Assembly: GCA_017621885.1 (NCBI GenBank)
Contig: JAGASD010000063.1
Coordinates: 99,421-163,420, forward strand
Source: Clostridia bacterium
GTDB lineage: Bacteria; Bacillota; Clostridia; Oscillospirales; Acutalibacteraceae
Direction of reading: 5' to 3'
Length of the DNA: 64,000 nucleotides
Shown here: positions 38,889-48,399 of the stretch, piece by piece
Position numbering within the stretch: the first letter of the stretch is position 1
Layout of the letters: every line of letters starts with the position of its first letter
Program-made: the position numbers and the translations under genes
Notes under the pieces: generated by a model
The model's input: only the letters and a program-made list of their open reading frames with translations
What the model was told of the DNA's origin: nothing
Database searches by the model: none

Positions 38889-39212
38889 ATGAATGATGTA
38901 TTAGGTACGGTTATTACTTTTACGGCAGGTGTGGGAATAACCGCATTAAACTATTTAGTTTCCAAATACGTTTTACAGAAAAGTCCCGATAAATTTGCAA
39001 TGACTTCAGTTATAAAGCAAATTATAAATGTGTCTTTTCTTGTGGCAGTTTATATGTTAAGCGACTATTTACCATGGAACTTTACATATTTAATCGTAGG
39101 TGCAGTATTGGGTATAACATTGCCTATGATTGTTTTTACGCGAAAGCTTGTAAAACTAAACGAAGCAAGGTGCGATGCTCCCAAGTGTAAAGAGGGTGAA
39201 AAGAATGGGTGA
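38889..39212 (+). CDS. atpI: ATP synthase protein I-like membrane protein
   Basis: 107 residues with three to four hydrophobic segments (about 4-24, 44-60, 64-85). AtpI proteins help assemble the c-ring and are poorly conserved; the assignment comes mainly from its place directly before atpB and its size. The atpB start lies inside its last codons (eight-base overlap). Confidence 0.7.
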   Translation: MNDVLGTVITFTAGVGITALNYLVSKYVLQKSPDKFAMTSVIKQIINVSFLVAVYMLSDYLPWNFTYLIVGAVLGITLPMIVFTRKLVKLNEARCDAPKCKEGEKNG

Positions 39213-39873
39213 AAAATCAGAGGTCATTATTGAAATTTTAGGCTTCCTTGACGTAACCGGTGAGGTTATCGGAATGTGGATTATTTTAGGATTAATAACC
39301 TTAATCTCGTTGATTGTCAAGCTTACACTTAAGGAGAGACCCGGTAAATTTCAAAATATTATTGAAACGGGTGTCGAATACCTTGATAATTTCTTTGGCG
39401 ATAACTTAGGCAAAAAGAAATCGAGGAAATATTTTACGTTTCTTGCTTCGCTTTTTGTTTTCATTATTTTTTCAAACTATTCGGGTCTTTTCCCCGGTGT
39501 AGGTATTACGGAATATGTTAAGGCACCGACCTCGTCGCTTTCGGTGACTGCCGGATTAGGTATAATAACCTTCATTTTCCTGCAGGTGTCGGCTTTGCGC
39601 CATAGTGTGAAGCATTATTTCAAGCGCTTTGTCAGTCCTATGTTCATTATGTTGCCTTTATTGTTGCTTGATGAAATTATCAAGCCTGCTTCTCTGGCGT
39701 TGCGTTTGTACGGTAATATTTTCGGTGAAGAAATGGTAACTGAAGAACTTTACGATATTTTGCCGATAGGCGCTCCGGCTATAATGATGATACTGTCATT
39801 GCTGTTTTGTGCATTACAGGCGGTGGTATTTACCATGCTTGTGTCAATATACCTCGATGAGGTTACCGAATAA
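39205..39873 (+). CDS. atpB: F1Fo ATP synthase subunit a
   Basis: Membrane subunit that forms the ion half-channels beside the c-ring. LALRLYGNIFGEEMV near the C-terminal third contains the essential stator Arg and conserved Asn. Five to six helices. ATG 39205 (MGEKSEVIIEILG) is chosen because GAGGGTG lies ahead of it; the open frame upstream runs inside atpI. Confidence 0.93.
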   Translation: MGEKSEVIIEILGFLDVTGEVIGMWIILGLITLISLIVKLTLKERPGKFQNIIETGVEYLDNFFGDNLGKKKSRKYFTFLASLFVFIIFSNYSGLFPGVGITEYVKAPTSSLSVTAGLGIITFIFLQVSALRHSVKHYFKRFVSPMFIMLPLLLLDEIIKPASLALRLYGNIFGEEMVTEELYDILPIGAPAIMMILSLLFCALQAVVFTMLVSIYLDEVTE

Positions 39874-39903: not shown

Positions 39904-40134
39904 ATGGAAAATTCAGGAATTATCGCTATTGCAGCAGCTATTGCCATCGCTATCAGTACGCTCGGGCCGGCGATCGGTCAGGGTCTTACGGCTAAAGCCG
40001 CTATGGAAGGCATCGCAAGACAGCCCGACGCAGCGAAAGATATTCGTTCAACTCTTATTATATCTCTTGCTCTTATGGAAGCCTTGACGATTTACGGGTT
40101 ACTTATCAGCTTTATGCTTGTTTCAAAAATCTAA
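39904..40134 (+). CDS. atpE: F1Fo ATP synthase subunit c
   Basis: 76-residue hairpin that oligomerises into the rotor ring. The polar loop is [12 protein letters not shown]; the ion-binding carboxylate is E59 in [13 protein letters not shown]. The residues after E59 are Ala-Leu, not the Ser-Thr of sodium-binding c subunits; EALTIYGL is the chloroplast/cyanobacterial proton type, so proton coupling is predicted. AAAGGAG ribosome site at 39889. Confidence 0.96.
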
Positions 40135-40145
40135 GGGTGAGATAA

Positions 40146-40565
40146 ATGAATATACAAATTTCTGTCGTAATATGGACTGTAATTTGTTTTGCTCTTCTGA
40201 TGGTTATTTTACGCAACTTGCTTTTTAAACCATTGCTTAAGGTTATGGATGAGCGGAGCGTTCATCTTGAAAATGCCCGTAAGAAAAAGTCAGAGATAGA
40301 TGAAGCTATCCGAGAGCAGGAAGAGAAGCTTTGTCAACAACAGACGGATTACCTCGAAAAGCAGAAAAAGGAAATATCCGAAAGGCTTGCGAGTATTCAG
40401 GCTGAAAGCAAAAATGCCGTTATAGAAGCGAGAAGAAAAAGCCTTTCCGATGTAAAGGCTTACCGTAAGTCTATGGACGCTGAACGTGAAAAAACAGTAA
40501 GCGATGTCAGCGCGAATGCCAAGAGCATAGCAGAAGCTTTTGCCCGACGGATCATTTCAAGATAA
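40146..40565 (+). CDS. atpF: F1Fo ATP synthase subunit b
   Basis: Peripheral-stalk subunit: one transmembrane helix (about 5-26), then a continuous charged coiled-coil to the end (LLKVMDERSVHLENARKKK...). At 139 residues it is shorter than E. coli b (156). Its partner stalk is probably the N-terminal part of the next gene's fusion protein. Confidence 0.9.
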   Translation: MNIQISVVIWTVICFALLMVILRNLLFKPLLKVMDERSVHLENARKKKSEIDEAIREQEEKLCQQQTDYLEKQKKEISERLASIQAESKNAVIEARRKSLSDVKAYRKSMDAEREKTVSDVSANAKSIAEAFARRIISR

Positions 40566-40577
40566 GGGGCGGTATTT

Positions 40578-42809
40578 ATGGAAATCCAATATGTTATCAT
40601 AAACTTTTTGATAGTTGCCGCCATTGTATTCTTTGCAGGCAGAAAAACAATTAAGTCCATTTTTTCAAAACGTTTAAAGAGAATTGACGATGAACTTGAG
40701 GAAATTGCTCGGATTGAAGCAATGAAAATTCCCGCGATTGAAGATTTTAAACCTGACTCCGAAAACGAGATATTTTCCGAAGAAATTGAGAAAGCAACTC
40801 GTGATGCACAGGCGAAAATCTTAAGGATAGAAGCCTTTAGTAAACGAGAATGTCACGAAATTCATAAGGAAGCCGTTGAAAAAGCGGGTGTGGAAATCTT
40901 TAACACAATTAAAAGCAGTGTTGCCGAGTTATTTTCGCAGGAACCGTATCTCAGCGATTTAAGAGCCCATGAGGCCGATATGGTAGATGATATTCTTAAG
41001 GAGGTAAAGCTTACCCCCGGTGACTTGACATACTTAAAGCATCACGATGTTTTGTACGTTACGCTGACATCGGCGCACAAGCTTTCCAATGATATTGTTA
41101 ATAAGGTTGATGAGTTTACAACTGATATGCTTAACCGGGTTAACGGCGCGACTTCCCTTTGGGTGCGCGAGGATCCTTCGCTTATCGGTGGTCTTAAATT
41201 GAGAATCGGTGATACTGTGTATGATTGCACAGTTGCAGAGGACCTTTACCGTTACGAAAAAAGTCTGTGTAGAGATATTCCGTTCAGTACATCGGGAAAT
41301 GACATCTTGTATGAGTTTACCCATAAGGCGGAAGTATTCAAGCCGAAGATTCACATATATCAGCTCGGTCGAGTTATGACCGTTTCTGACGGTATTTGCT
41401 GGATGGACGGTCTTGCTGATATTATGTACGGAGAGGTTATAGAATTTGAATGTGGCGAGCGAGGAATGGTTCTTGACATACAGCACAACCGCATAGGCTG
41501 TGTGGTTTTCGGTGAGTATGAGAATATCGAAAGCGGCAGTCGTGTAAGGCGTGTGGGCAGAATCGCCTCTGTCCCTGTAGGCGATGAGCTTCTGGGCAGG
41601 GTAGTTGACTCTATAGGTAATCCTATAGATGGTGAAGGCTACATTATCACCGAGGAGCGCAGACCCATTGAGTTTAAGGCTCCGGCAATTCTTGACCGCC
41701 AAGGTGTAAGCGAGCCTCTTCAGACAGGCTTAAAAGCCGTGGATGCACTTGTGCCTATTGGCAAGGGGCAGCGCGAGCTTATAATTGGTGACAGGCAGAC
41801 TGGTAAAAGTGCTGTTGCCGTTGATGCTATCATAAATCAAAAGGGCAAGGGCACAGTTTGTATATATGTTGCCATAGGTCAGAAGGAAACTACAGTTTCC
41901 GAAATTAGAGAAACTCTGGAAAAGAATGGTGCTTTAGATTATACCGTTATCGTTGCGGCAACTGCTTCCGGTTCAGCGGCTACACAATATATAGCGCCAT
42001 TTAGCGCCACAGCCATGGGTGAGCATTTTATGTACAACGGCAGAGATGTGCTTATTGTGTATGATGATTTGTCAAAGCACGCCGTTGCATACCGCGAGCT
42101 TTCTCTTCTTTTGCACAGACCCTCAGGCAGAGAAGCTTATCCCGGTGATATTTTCTATTTGCATTCCAGATTGCTTGAGCGCTCTGCAAAATTATCTGAG
42201 GAATTAGGTGGCGGTTCTATGACGGCGTTGCCTATTATAGAAACGCAGGCGGGCGATATATCGGCATATATCCCCACTAACGTTATATCAATTACAGATG
42301 GTCAGATTTTCCTCGATACAGAACTGTTTAATGAGGGTCAGCGCCCTGCTATTAACGTTGGCCTTTCGGTTTCCCGTGTAGGCGGTTCAGCTCAAACAAA
42401 ATTAATGAAGCAGGTCTCCTCAAATCTTCGTACAAGACTTGCGCAGTACCGTGAATTGGCAGGCTTTATGCAGTTCGGAGCAGAAGTGGATTCTGAGACC
42501 GCAAAAACGATTGAATCGGGTCGACGCTTGACGGAGGCTTTGAAGCAGCCCCGCTATAAGCCCCTTCCCGATAAATATCAGGTATTGCTTCTTTTTGCTA
42601 TTGCAGAAGGGTATTCAAATGATGTTGATGTAAATTCTATGGAAGAATTCGAAGCAGCACTTTATAAATATTTCGAAGCTGAGCAATCCGAGGTTATAAA
42701 AATTCTCGAAAAAGGCGAAAAACTTGACAAGGAAAATCAAGACAAACTACGCGAGGCTTTGAGCGAATTCAAGTTGATGGGAGTTGAACCTCGTACGCCA
42801 CAAAATTAA
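40578..42809 (+). CDS. atpA: Fused b-like stalk / delta C-terminal domain / alpha subunit of F1Fo ATP synthase
   Basis: One frame of 743 codons replaces atpH and atpA. Residues 5-20 form a transmembrane helix, 25-140 a charged helical stalk like subunit b, and about 145-230 match the delta C-terminal domain: TLTSAHKLSNDIVNKV, then REDPSLIGGLKLRIGDTVYD and VAEDLYRYEKSL, parallel to the VDxSLIGGxxIRxGDxxxDGSV...L block of delta. From about 245 the full alpha subunit follows: YQLGRVMTVSDGI, P-loop GDRQTGKS at 404-411, GLSVSRVGGSAQT with the arginine finger, and SGRRLTEALKQPRY. The usual delta N-terminal six-helix domain that binds alpha is not obvious. AAGGGG lies seven bases before the ATG. No frameshift or internal ATG with a ribosome site occurs at the delta/alpha joint; a TTG at 41307 is the only candidate internal start. 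Confidence 0.92.
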   Translation: MEIQYVIINFLIVAAIVFFAGRKTIKSIFSKRLKRIDDELEEIARIEAMKIPAIEDFKPDSENEIFSEEIEKATRDAQAKILRIEAFSKRECHEIHKEAVEKAGVEIFNTIKSSVAELFSQEPYLSDLRAHEADMVDDILKEVKLTPGDLTYLKHHDVLYVTLTSAHKLSNDIVNKVDEFTTDMLNRVNGATSLWVREDPSLIGGLKLRIGDTVYDCTVAEDLYRYEKSLCRDIPFSTSGNDILYEFTHKAEVFKPKIHIYQLGRVMTVSDGICWMDGLADIMYGEVIEFECGERGMVLDIQHNRIGCVVFGEYENIESGSRVRRVGRIASVPVGDELLGRVVDSIGNPIDGEGYIITEERRPIEFKAPAILDRQGVSEPLQTGLKAVDALVPIGKGQRELIIGDRQTGKSAVAVDAIINQKGKGTVCIYVAIGQKETTVSEIRETLEKNGALDYTVIVAATASGSAATQYIAPFSATAMGEHFMYNGRDVLIVYDDLSKHAVAYRELSLLLHRPSGREAYPGDIFYLHSRLLERSAKLSEELGGGSMTALPIIETQAGDISAYIPTNVISITDGQIFLDTELFNEGQRPAINVGLSVSRVGGSAQTKLMKQVSSNLRTRLAQYRELAGFMQFGAEVDSETAKTIESGRRLTEALKQPRYKPLPDKYQVLLLFAIAEGYSNDVDVNSMEEFEAALYKYFEAEQSEVIKILEKGEKLDKENQDKLREALSEFKLMGVEPRTPQN

Positions 42810-42867: not shown

Positions 42868-45399
<2,532 letters not shown>

Positions 45400-46314: not shown

Positions 46315-48399
46315 ATGTATTGTAAAAAATGCGGTACGGAAGTGGTACCGGGACGTTTTTGCACCAACTGCGGTGAAAAAGCTCCTGATGTTGACAATGC
46401 TTCTGCTAAAATTGATAATAATCCTGCGCCTGCTCCTGCAACAAACGGGGTTAACGCAAGCAATACCATTAATTCTTCGGTAAACGGCGGTAATATTCCT
46501 GATACTGCCGCAAACGGCGGAAAAGCAAAAAAATCAAAAGCACCTTTGATTATAATTATTTGTGTTGCCTGTGTGATTTTTATCGGTGCTGCGTGTGTTT
46601 TAGGTTTTTCTCTTCTTAAATCATCCTCAGGTAATGTTGAGAAATTTACCGAAGGTATGCAGAGACAAAACTGGCAGAGTGTATATGATATGATGTTTTT
46701 TGAAGAAACCGATTACGTTACGTTTGAACGTTTTTCCAAGGCTTGTGAAGATAACGCTTCGGTTTTAGGTGCGGATTTTTCCGGTGCATCTGATTGTACG
46801 GTTAGCGAAGCCGGTGAATCCGACGGTAACAAAAAATATAAAATAACCGGCAGTAACGATGAAGCAATGGAAGTTGTTCTTGAAATGGTGAAGGATGGTC
46901 CGCTTTCATTTGATACTTACCGAATTACAACGCCTGCTTGTGTAAGCTTTACCTTGTCCGTTCCCGAAAAATCGAAGGTGAAATTTGAGGGGAAGGACGT
47001 AACTGAAGGTGCAACGAAAGACGGTGTTACAACGTACGTTATTTATCCGCTTATTCCCGGTGATTATGAGCTCGATGTGGAAGACGGAGCCGGTAACAAA
47101 TACGGAACTTATGTAACAATCACTCCCGATTCAACTGTAAATACGCTTGTCCTTAATGCTGATGAAATTAAAGCGGGCAAGGAGAAAAAGGCTGCGGATG
47201 AATACACAACAAAGGACGTTGAGGCTTTCTTCTACAAAATGTTGAAAGAGAATAATGATAGCTCATTAGTTTTCTTGTTTGCAAAAAGTGAAAAGGATTT
47301 CAACGATTTCGGCTTTGAATGGTTTGATCTTACAACCGCAGAAGTTAATTCCAAATCAACCTATACATCAAAAATCAACGGAACAGAGCTCAATGTTTCT
47401 GATATTATGACTAAGGAAGAGTTTGATAAACTTGATTTGAGTTCAACTCAGTCATATAAGGTTTATAAAGTTGCTCAGCTTCAGAAAAAAATAGATGAGC
47501 TCTGGGTACCCGGCAGATTTTCAGTTGAAAAAATTGCAAGAAGCAGTGACTTTATTACATCAAAGGGTTATCTTTTATATAGCTACGTTGCTTCAAGCGG
47601 TGCTTATGCAACATATTACGGTGAGCCGGCAAAATGCGTAAAGGACGGGGACGGAAGATTCGTTCTTGATGCATATATGATTTATTATGATGTAACAGAC
47701 AGCGGTGTTTATGACTTTACAACGGGTACATACCTCTCTTCTGCACAGATAAAAACGGAAGATGAAACAGTTGATTTTAACAGTATGAAGGATGTACTTG
47801 GTCTGGATCTCAGTAAAATTAACACAGTAACGTTTACTTTTGAAGCAACCAACAGCGGCATACGTCTTGTCGGTGCTGATTCACCCAATACCGCTGAACA
47901 ATCTCAGCAGGCTATTGTTCAACAAACCCCTTCTGTAAGCGGTGAAGTTTCATATTGCTCATCATACTATATGTACGTAAAGGCACAGGGCGGTCTCAAT
48001 TTGCGTCTGTTGCCGTCGCAGAATTCGGGAATTATTACAAATATTCCTAATTATTCTACCGTAACGGTGCGCGGGTATTCCCCCTCAATCGCAGGCTGGT
48101 ATTACGTTTCTTACGGCTCCTATTACGGTTGGGTAAGCAGTGCATATCTTACAAGCTATAACACTTACGGCAGCGGCGGTCACGGAACGTATACCTACTA
48201 CACTGTAAGGGCGCAGGGCGGTCTTAATATGCGCTATTCTGCAAGCACAAACTCGGGTGTTGTAAGGCTTATTCCCAACGGTGCAACGGTTCAGCTTCTT
48301 GAATACAACGGAAGCGGTACATGGGCTTACGTTTATTATAACGGCTATAAAGGTTGGGTAAACACAAGCTACCTTGTTTATTCATACACCACATATTAA
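46315..48399 (+). CDS. Membrane-anchored zinc-ribbon protein with two bacterial SH3 domains
   Basis: 694 residues. An N-terminal zinc-ribbon (YCKKCGTEVVPGRFCTNCGEKAP, two CxxC pairs within 22 residues), a disordered Asn/Ala-rich stretch, and a transmembrane helix at about 76-99 (LIIIICVACVIFIGAACVL). The extracellular part has a TcaA-like region (about 100-280), an unrecognised middle, and two SH3_3-type domains at the end, each with the QGGLNxR...GWVxxxYL pattern. SH3 domains of this kind usually bind peptidoglycan, so an envelope-sensing or wall-binding role is inferred. Shares its zinc-ribbon-plus-one-helix start with the gene at 3.3 kb. Confidence 0.85.
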   Translation: MYCKKCGTEVVPGRFCTNCGEKAPDVDNASAKIDNNPAPAPATNGVNASNTINSSVNGGNIPDTAANGGKAKKSKAPLIIIICVACVIFIGAACVLGFSLLKSSSGNVEKFTEGMQRQNWQSVYDMMFFEETDYVTFERFSKACEDNASVLGADFSGASDCTVSEAGESDGNKKYKITGSNDEAMEVVLEMVKDGPLSFDTYRITTPACVSFTLSVPEKSKVKFEGKDVTEGATKDGVTTYVIYPLIPGDYELDVEDGAGNKYGTYVTITPDSTVNTLVLNADEIKAGKEKKAADEYTTKDVEAFFYKMLKENNDSSLVFLFAKSEKDFNDFGFEWFDLTTAEVNSKSTYTSKINGTELNVSDIMTKEEFDKLDLSSTQSYKVYKVAQLQKKIDELWVPGRFSVEKIARSSDFITSKGYLLYSYVASSGAYATYYGEPAKCVKDGDGRFVLDAYMIYYDVTDSGVYDFTTGTYLSSAQIKTEDETVDFNSMKDVLGLDLSKINTVTFTFEATNSGIRLVGADSPNTAEQSQQAIVQQTPSVSGEVSYCSSYYMYVKAQGGLNLRLLPSQNSGIITNIPNYSTVTVRGYSPSIAGWYYVSYGSYYGWVSSAYLTSYNTYGSGGHGTYTYYTVRAQGGLNMRYSASTNSGVVRLIPNGATVQLLEYNGSGTWAYVYYNGYKGWVNTSYLVYSYTTY

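Follow-up and report, generated by a model that had tools for sequence, protein, structure and literature searches.

How can a rotary enzyme that needs three alpha subunits be assembled when each alpha carries a piece of the peripheral stalk on its own N-terminus? The question is raised by a stretch of 64,000 nucleotides (hereafter the window; contig JAGASD010000063.1, positions 99,421 to 163,420, of assembly GCA_017621885.1, a genome labelled Clostridia bacterium), in which one reading frame on the forward strand, at 40578..42809, encodes a b-type stalk, the C-terminal domain of delta (deltaC) and the alpha subunit of an F-type ATP synthase. The textbook F-type ATP synthase has one peripheral stalk, and its number of protons per ATP (H+/ATP) is thought to be tuned by the size of the c-ring. 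A preceding inspection of the window's letters (the sequence-only reading) had recognized the three parts and offered three ways out: the chain is cleaved, free alpha is made from an internal start, or the geometry of the stator is new. The sequences analyzed here favour the third option and gave the internal start no support. We consider it probable that the chain stays intact and that the enzyme is a natural F-type ATP synthase with three peripheral stalks, whatever its number of a-subunits. The chain is composed as follows (window coordinates):

40578..42809, forward strand: b-deltaC-alpha fusion of 743 amino acids, a single uninterrupted frame.
40578..40652, forward strand: residues 1-25, b-type membrane helix (Kyte-Doolittle value 2.3 over a 19-residue window from residue 3, then RKTIKSIFSKRLKRI).
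40653..41021, forward strand: residues 26-148, b-type stalk, with a C-terminal stretch that can be aligned to the end of canonical b.
41031..41267, forward strand: residues 152-230, delta/OSCP C-terminal domain, without the N-terminal domain (PF00213, profile positions 96-172).
41268..41363, forward strand: residues 231-262, delta/alpha joint, of fixed length, including TTG 41307.
41364..42776, forward strand: residues 263-733, alpha subunit (TIGR00962, 735.1 bits; continuous alignment to PDB 9jc1 chain I).

Domains were placed with Pfam and NCBIfam profiles and their curated cut-offs, and these matches, together with the relatives described below, bear out that all 743 codons are open and join a b-like stalk, a delta domain and alpha. 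The alpha part was by far within its family (residues 248-733, model positions 12-499 of 503, cut-off 484.45 bits). In the 49 aligned rows, its P-loop GDRQTGK was invariant at G404, D405, R406, Q407, G409 and K410 and nearly so at T408, and arginine R600 in SVSRVGG was invariant. The delta match covered the C-terminal half of the profile, which has 172 positions (45.0 bits, cut-off 22.3), and PF00213 was likewise found in the fused N-termini of 49/49 relatives at E ≤ 0.01. The delta C-terminal domain had thus been correctly recognized before, with the addition that the N-terminal domain (profile positions about 1-95) is absent: no match to it was found in the fusion or elsewhere in its own genome. 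In the window's chain the b part matched ATP-synt_B (PF00430) weakly (residues 4-133, E 0.0021, 18.6 bits, cut-off 28), and the N-terminal piece alone, with 25.5 bits, likewise stayed below the cut-off. The same family was matched by 48 of the 49 fused N-termini of the relatives at E ≤ 0.01 (best 2.4e-10), and a profile built from these 49 matched the b subunit of Bacillus PS3 over positions 3-142 (E 3.8e-9); its top match in the PDB was the 7jg5 chain named b-delta, with the best stretch in the delta part. As judged by sequence, the b identity of the N-terminal part is firm once the relatives are included. A hydrophobic helix stands at the N-terminus of all 57 chains and the 15 residues after it have a median net charge of +5, which fits the usual orientation of b and would place alpha in the cytoplasm.

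The two b-type proteins of these operons differ at their ends. Canonical b (60 sequences, median 168 aa) closes with the consensus LIDSFIDEIG, and this C-terminal end contacts the C-terminal domain of delta. Fused b (57 sequences) retains a stretch matching this end directly before deltaC, whereas free b (57 sequences, median 141 aa) ends earlier and lacks it. Since only fused b keeps the canonical end, its probable partner is the delta domain that follows it in the same chain, and free b would then form the second strand of the stalk. The order of the parts along the chain, from membrane to stalk to the top of F1 to alpha, is the order of contacts in the ordinary enzyme.

The earlier proposal to look for the same fusion in other genomes led to 58 distinct genomes after removal of duplicates, namely 45 loci from a scan of the GTDB species genomes, for which the first 250 residues of four relatives served as queries, the window itself and 12 others that kinship codes place in the window's order. 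Together they yielded 57 distinct full-length proteins, all open, 49 of which were taken into the alignments; two fragments of genome G037 stand outside the counts, and L128 and L172, a single locus cut by a contig end, are excluded from the 57. All of the 45 scanned loci come from metagenome-assembled genomes (MAGs) labelled Clostridia or Oscillospiraceae bacterium, with record names that point to ruminant colon, cecum or rectum (34), suggest rabbit (1) or give no source (10). In a sample of the order (394 genomes) a b-deltaC profile was matched at E ≤ 1e-50 in 18 genomes, the window's own included, with the family codes f1, f19, f20 and f21, and in a sample of the family (200 genomes) the whole chain was matched in the window's genome and in G175, G070 and G148. 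The same-genus genome G175 bears the same chain, with a protein that does not differ from the one of L097, and the window's organism is most likely an anaerobic clostridium of the gut. Samples of the class (391 genomes) and phylum (398 genomes) held no further intact case past 1e-10: in the single class match, G578, a stop separates b from a deltaC-alpha fusion, and both matches in the phylum sample are plain delta genes. The gene order a-c-b-[fusion]-gamma-beta is constant wherever the contig extends, and neither a delta nor an alpha apart from the fusion was detected in these operons, which agrees with the earlier statement that the window's operon contains no atpH. The median ratios of nonsynonymous to synonymous substitution rates (dN/dS), taken from 20 to 30 close and non-independent pairs per segment, ranged from 0.057 in alpha to 0.136 in the stalk, with the membrane helix at 0.062, deltaC at 0.069 and the joint at 0.095 (20 pairs); judged from these ratios, purifying selection is acting on all segments.

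The joint between delta and alpha was measured as the spacing from delta Asp216 to alpha Gly264. This spacing is 49 in 56 of the 57 chains and 48 in the window, while the residues of the joint vary between chains despite its constant length and are less conserved than deltaC and the alpha core. The same measure gave 44-56 in 15 of 16 deltaC-alpha fusions (one is without a value) and 48-58 in five fusions of full-length delta to alpha; for 29 pairs in separate-gene operons the summed tails came to 43-67 in 28 and to 87 in one, an outlier for which a start codon placed too early, as in L075, may be responsible. An engineered chain with delta joined to alpha (PDB 9jc1 chain I) has a spacing of 48, equal to that of the window. 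The fixed length of the joint may thus reflect a geometric constraint on an intact chain.

These observations suggest a functional F-type ATP synthase in which the fusion takes the role of alpha and the outer stalk is built into the head. Each chain would run from the membrane (b helix) along the side of F1 (b stalk) to its top (deltaC) and continue into alpha, and because F1 needs three alphas, three such chains and three peripheral stalks would be present per enzyme, each stalk probably pairing with one free short b (40146-40565). The N-terminal domain of delta normally sits on the threefold axis, where it permits a single stalk; with this domain gone, nothing would break the threefold symmetry. 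We infer an uncut chain, the formation of three stalks and an a-subunit on each of them, by which H+/ATP would be raised several-fold. A higher H+/ATP would permit the synthesis of ATP at low proton-motive force, or the pumping of many protons per ATP against a small gradient.

A comparable enzyme has been made by design. According to the excerpts of PMC12229609 used here, deleting the N-terminal domain of delta in Bacillus PS3 and fusing the rest to alpha (deltaDeltaN-alpha) yields enzymes with one to three stalks and an a-subunit on each; the mean number of stalks was about two as judged from gels and 1.26 per molecule in cryo-electron microscopy (cryo-EM), and H+/ATP was 5.8, as compared to 3.0 (PMC12229609, 2025). 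From this its authors conclude that the N-terminal domain of delta limits the enzyme to one stalk, and the rule they propose gives an H+/ATP of about 10 for a ten-membered ring with three a-subunits. As this engineered enzyme with deltaC on every alpha works, the sequence-only reading was too strict in holding that F1 needs one delta. Positions 184-735 of a profile of the 49 fusions align in a single stretch with positions 25-575 of PDB 9jc1 chain I, and the window's enzyme, as predicted, has the features that were designed into the PS3 fusion, plus a fused b. A more specific proposal we put forward tentatively, as somewhat short of an even chance: one c-ring would be surrounded by three b-deltaC-alpha chains, with a free b for each of them, and by as many as three a-subunits. 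H+/ATP would then be about three times the usual one, and the arrangement would have been fixed by selection in one clade of gut fermenters living at low proton-motive force.

The remaining genes of the operon, all on the forward strand, are the following (window coordinates):

39175..39873, forward strand: atpB, F0 subunit a, likely start ATG 39205 (PF00119, 146.5 bits).
39904..40134, forward strand: atpE, F0 subunit c, 76 aa (PF00137, 70.1 bits).
40146..40565, forward strand: free b-type stalk subunit, 139 aa, which probably pairs with the fused b (ATP-synt_B, E 9.7e-6, 26.1 bits, slightly below the cut-off of 28).
42868..43704, forward strand: atpG, gamma subunit (PF00231, 172.2 bits).
43701..45122, forward strand: atpD, beta subunit (TIGR01039, 764.5 bits).
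45094..45399, forward strand: atpC, short epsilon of 101 aa, beta-sandwich domain only (PF02823, 45.1 bits).

A short epsilon was considered as a hallmark of the fusion operons and was discarded, its median length being 96 aa in 53 fusion operons versus 87 aa in separate-full-delta operons (n = 30, those in which epsilon was found). At the head of the operon (38889-39212) lies a gene for a protein of 107 aa that may stand where atpI would be expected; its matches (DUF4191, DUF3522) all stay below the cut-off. Further downstream, at 46315-48399, the list of open reading frames holds a protein of 694 aa that has a CxxC stretch resembling a zinc ribbon near its N-terminus and SH3-like repeats towards its C-terminus.

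Several other accounts of the locus were weighed. The closest of them keeps three intact chains and three stalks and therefore belongs within the reading that we prefer, yet assumes one a-subunit only, as in the eukaryotic V-ATPases; the gain of the fusion would then be stiffness or a fixed assembly, with H+/ATP unchanged. It draws on that precedent and on the presence of one a gene in the operon, but the visible stalks of the engineered enzyme always kept an a-subunit and its H+/ATP doubled at an average of two stalks (PMC12229609, in the excerpts used), and we regard it as rather unlikely. A cut at the delta/alpha joint after translation, which would free most of the alpha and leave one b-deltaC per enzyme in an ordinary single stalk, would restore the usual ratio of three alpha to one delta, and the lower conservation of the joint would suit it; the single joint length in 56 of 57 relatives, the purifying selection on the joint and the failure to find, in the window's own genome, a delta N-terminal domain that could dock a single stalk on the axis make it improbable. 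An assembly or sequencing artefact, or a gene in decay, might be suspected from the fact that the sources of the 45 scanned loci are all MAGs, but is practically negligible given 57 distinct open proteins from many assemblies, the low dN/dS in every segment and the conserved P-loop and arginine.

The remaining account, in which translation beginning inside the frame, near codon 244 or downstream of it, supplies the free alpha and only a minor part of the product is the full chain, could be followed through start codons and Shine-Dalgarno matches, with the other genes of the operon as controls. The candidate of the sequence-only reading, TTG 41307, does exist and corresponds to codon 244; this codon is a start codon in 6 of the 57 chains, in none of them with a Shine-Dalgarno match. 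Between residues 228 and 262, 17 of the 57 chains have no in-frame ATG, GTG or TTG, and an in-frame start with a Shine-Dalgarno match occurs in four chains, at four different places. Such matches were not more frequent at the start codons of this linker (4/69) than at in-frame starts inside alpha (88/1158). At the starts of the other genes, defined mechanically as first starts of the open reading frames so that some may be misplaced, they were found for c in 53/54, b in 34/55, gamma in 37/57 and beta in 26/56, and the fusion's own start has one in 32/57. Further in, Met297 is ATG in 57/57 with a Shine-Dalgarno match in 8/57; it sits inside the alpha barrel domain (264-327), part of which would be lost with a start there. 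No conserved internal start that would yield a whole alpha was found among the 57 chains. The supply of free alpha by internal initiation is thus very improbable.

To the intact three-stalk enzyme itself there are also objections. The a gene is single in the operon, three anchors and three a-subunits round one c-ring is a crowded arrangement, and the ATG at Met297 is present in every chain. Among 20 fusion genomes that were searched whole, three have a second F-type enzyme, whose delta and alpha are complete and separate in two of them (G286 and G548); six, the window's genome included, gave V-type A/B-like matches. That genome (2.63 Mb, 64 contigs, 94% complete) also carries, beyond what the sequence-only reading could see, a V-type ATPase operon with E, DUF2764, A, B, D, I and K on contig C17 (L213:4217-11455), and the fusion enzyme may therefore be dispensable in this genome. 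Our early assumption that this genome has no rotary ATPase besides the fusion was therefore wrong. In the genome, PF01992 had given no match and PF01496 one below the cut-off, and an AC39-family subunit was not found.

Other results of the genome searches are in line with the intact three-stalk enzyme. A separate atpH and atpA elsewhere in the genome, which the sequence-only reading had named as decisive against the fusion, were sought in the window's genome and not found: within its 94% completeness the fusion frame is the sole OSCP match, and no other alpha exceeded the cut-off. In 17 of the 20 genomes nothing but the fusion was matched by the OSCP and F-type alpha profiles (the chain of G335 is cut by a contig end, and its alpha is under the cut-off). 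In 12 of the 20 no rotary ATPase was matched beyond the fusion and its own beta; six of these are at least 90% complete, including the same-genus G175 (98%). Genome G148, the third of those with a second F-type enzyme, has two F-type operons without the delta N-terminal domain, L035 and L043, one b-deltaC-alpha and one deltaC-alpha; the latter lies on a contig of 5.4 kb, and contamination is possible. On contig C32 of the window's genome we found an Rnf operon (rnfC, D, G, E, A, B; L214:1227-6290). Rnf complexes build an ion gradient from small redox steps, and the presence of one would suit an enzyme that runs at a low gradient.

The fusion is accompanied, within its family, by a range of related arrangements. 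Among 63 F-type alpha loci fetched from the 200 genomes of the family, 32 have a separate full delta, nine a separate gene for deltaC alone, 11 a deltaC-alpha fusion, five a full-delta-alpha fusion (one with a doubled N-terminal domain) and four the b-deltaC-alpha fusion, and two were left unclassed. The full-delta-alpha fusions are L044 (4536-6884, the one with the doubling), L038, L040, L041 and L053. They are harder to explain than the deltaC fusions, as three complete deltas per enzyme would clash on the threefold axis. The free deltaC genes encode 72-102 aa beside an ordinary alpha (L057, L078, L082, L088, L089, L090, L092, L093 and L094), one of the nine loci being in a genome of the window's own genus, and the enzymes that have such a free-standing deltaC gene may be multi-stalk as well. 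At L064 (4543-6111) an F-type operon has an alpha of 522 aa, and no delta was detected in it.

In a tree of the alpha core made by a quick method (108 rows, including 28 of the 57 fusions), all 28 b-deltaC-alpha rows fall on a single branch (support 100), while the deltaC-alpha arrangement requires six changes. With the approximately unbiased (AU) test, a single origin of all deltaC-alpha fusions was rejected (p-AU 2e-32; quick tree, 16 rows versus 59), as was a single origin of all forms without the delta N-terminal domain (p-AU 0.0017; 43 rows versus 32). A joint clade of b-deltaC-alpha (18 rows) and the main delta-alpha group (20 rows), the members of which were chosen after the tree had been seen, was not rejected (p-AU 0.67). 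Loss of the N-terminal domain of delta seems to have occurred repeatedly, in some cases with fusion and in others without it, a claim that is limited by the quick trees and by possible gene transfer. A pre-fusion ancestor, with b and b' separate beside a separate delta, was not present among 20 operons fetched. The operons, ranging from those with a separate full delta to those in which it is fused with b, look like a natural series for the study of how stalk number is controlled.

How does the fusion compare with known systems? The eukaryotic V-ATPase, an ATP-driven pump, has three peripheral stalks, each ending on a non-catalytic subunit that is homologous to alpha, and a single a. The predicted fusion enzyme would be like it in having three stalks, but those of the V-ATPase are separate E-G subunits. 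The N-ATPase (alternate F1F0) is an F-type enzyme without a standard delta gene; the window's proteins do not belong to it, as alpha scored 615.6 bits against a TIGR03324 cut-off of 750.5 and beta 576.1 against a TIGR03305 cut-off of 752. In the mycobacterial b-delta fusion, delta retains its N-terminal domain. That fusion resembles the window's chain in joining b to delta (PDB 7jg5 chain d; PMC5709465, in excerpt), but its alpha is a separate chain, so that one copy is present per enzyme, whereas here alpha is part of the same chain. The nearest system is the engineered PS3 FoF1 (PDB 9jc1): there, too, delta without its N-terminal domain sits on the N-terminus of alpha at the window's 48-residue spacing, but its b is a separate homodimer, whereas in the window one b is built into the chain and a second, shorter b is free; its stalk number was measured, that of the window's enzyme is predicted from sequence (PMC12229609, in excerpt). 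The fusion of delta to alpha itself is not new, as the same excerpts note natural deltaDeltaN-alpha fusions, in Acidaminococcus fermentans and in UniProt G4Q3K6 and A0A1I2C5T3, for which multiple stalks were predicted. These share with the window the loss of the delta N-terminal domain and the joining of delta to alpha; the excerpted text mentions no fused b, and the comparison is one by description. In the open-licence literature searched we found no description of a three-part b-delta-alpha fusion. New, as far as the searches reach, are the additional fusion of b, by which each alpha stands on its own membrane anchor, and the large conserved clade in which this occurs. As an enzyme with b, deltaC and alpha in one covalent chain can hardly fail to have a stalk for every alpha, the fusion would provide a strong natural case for multi-stalk enzymes, and it turns the result of an engineering experiment into a question about real organisms, with 57 distinct sequences to choose from for expression.

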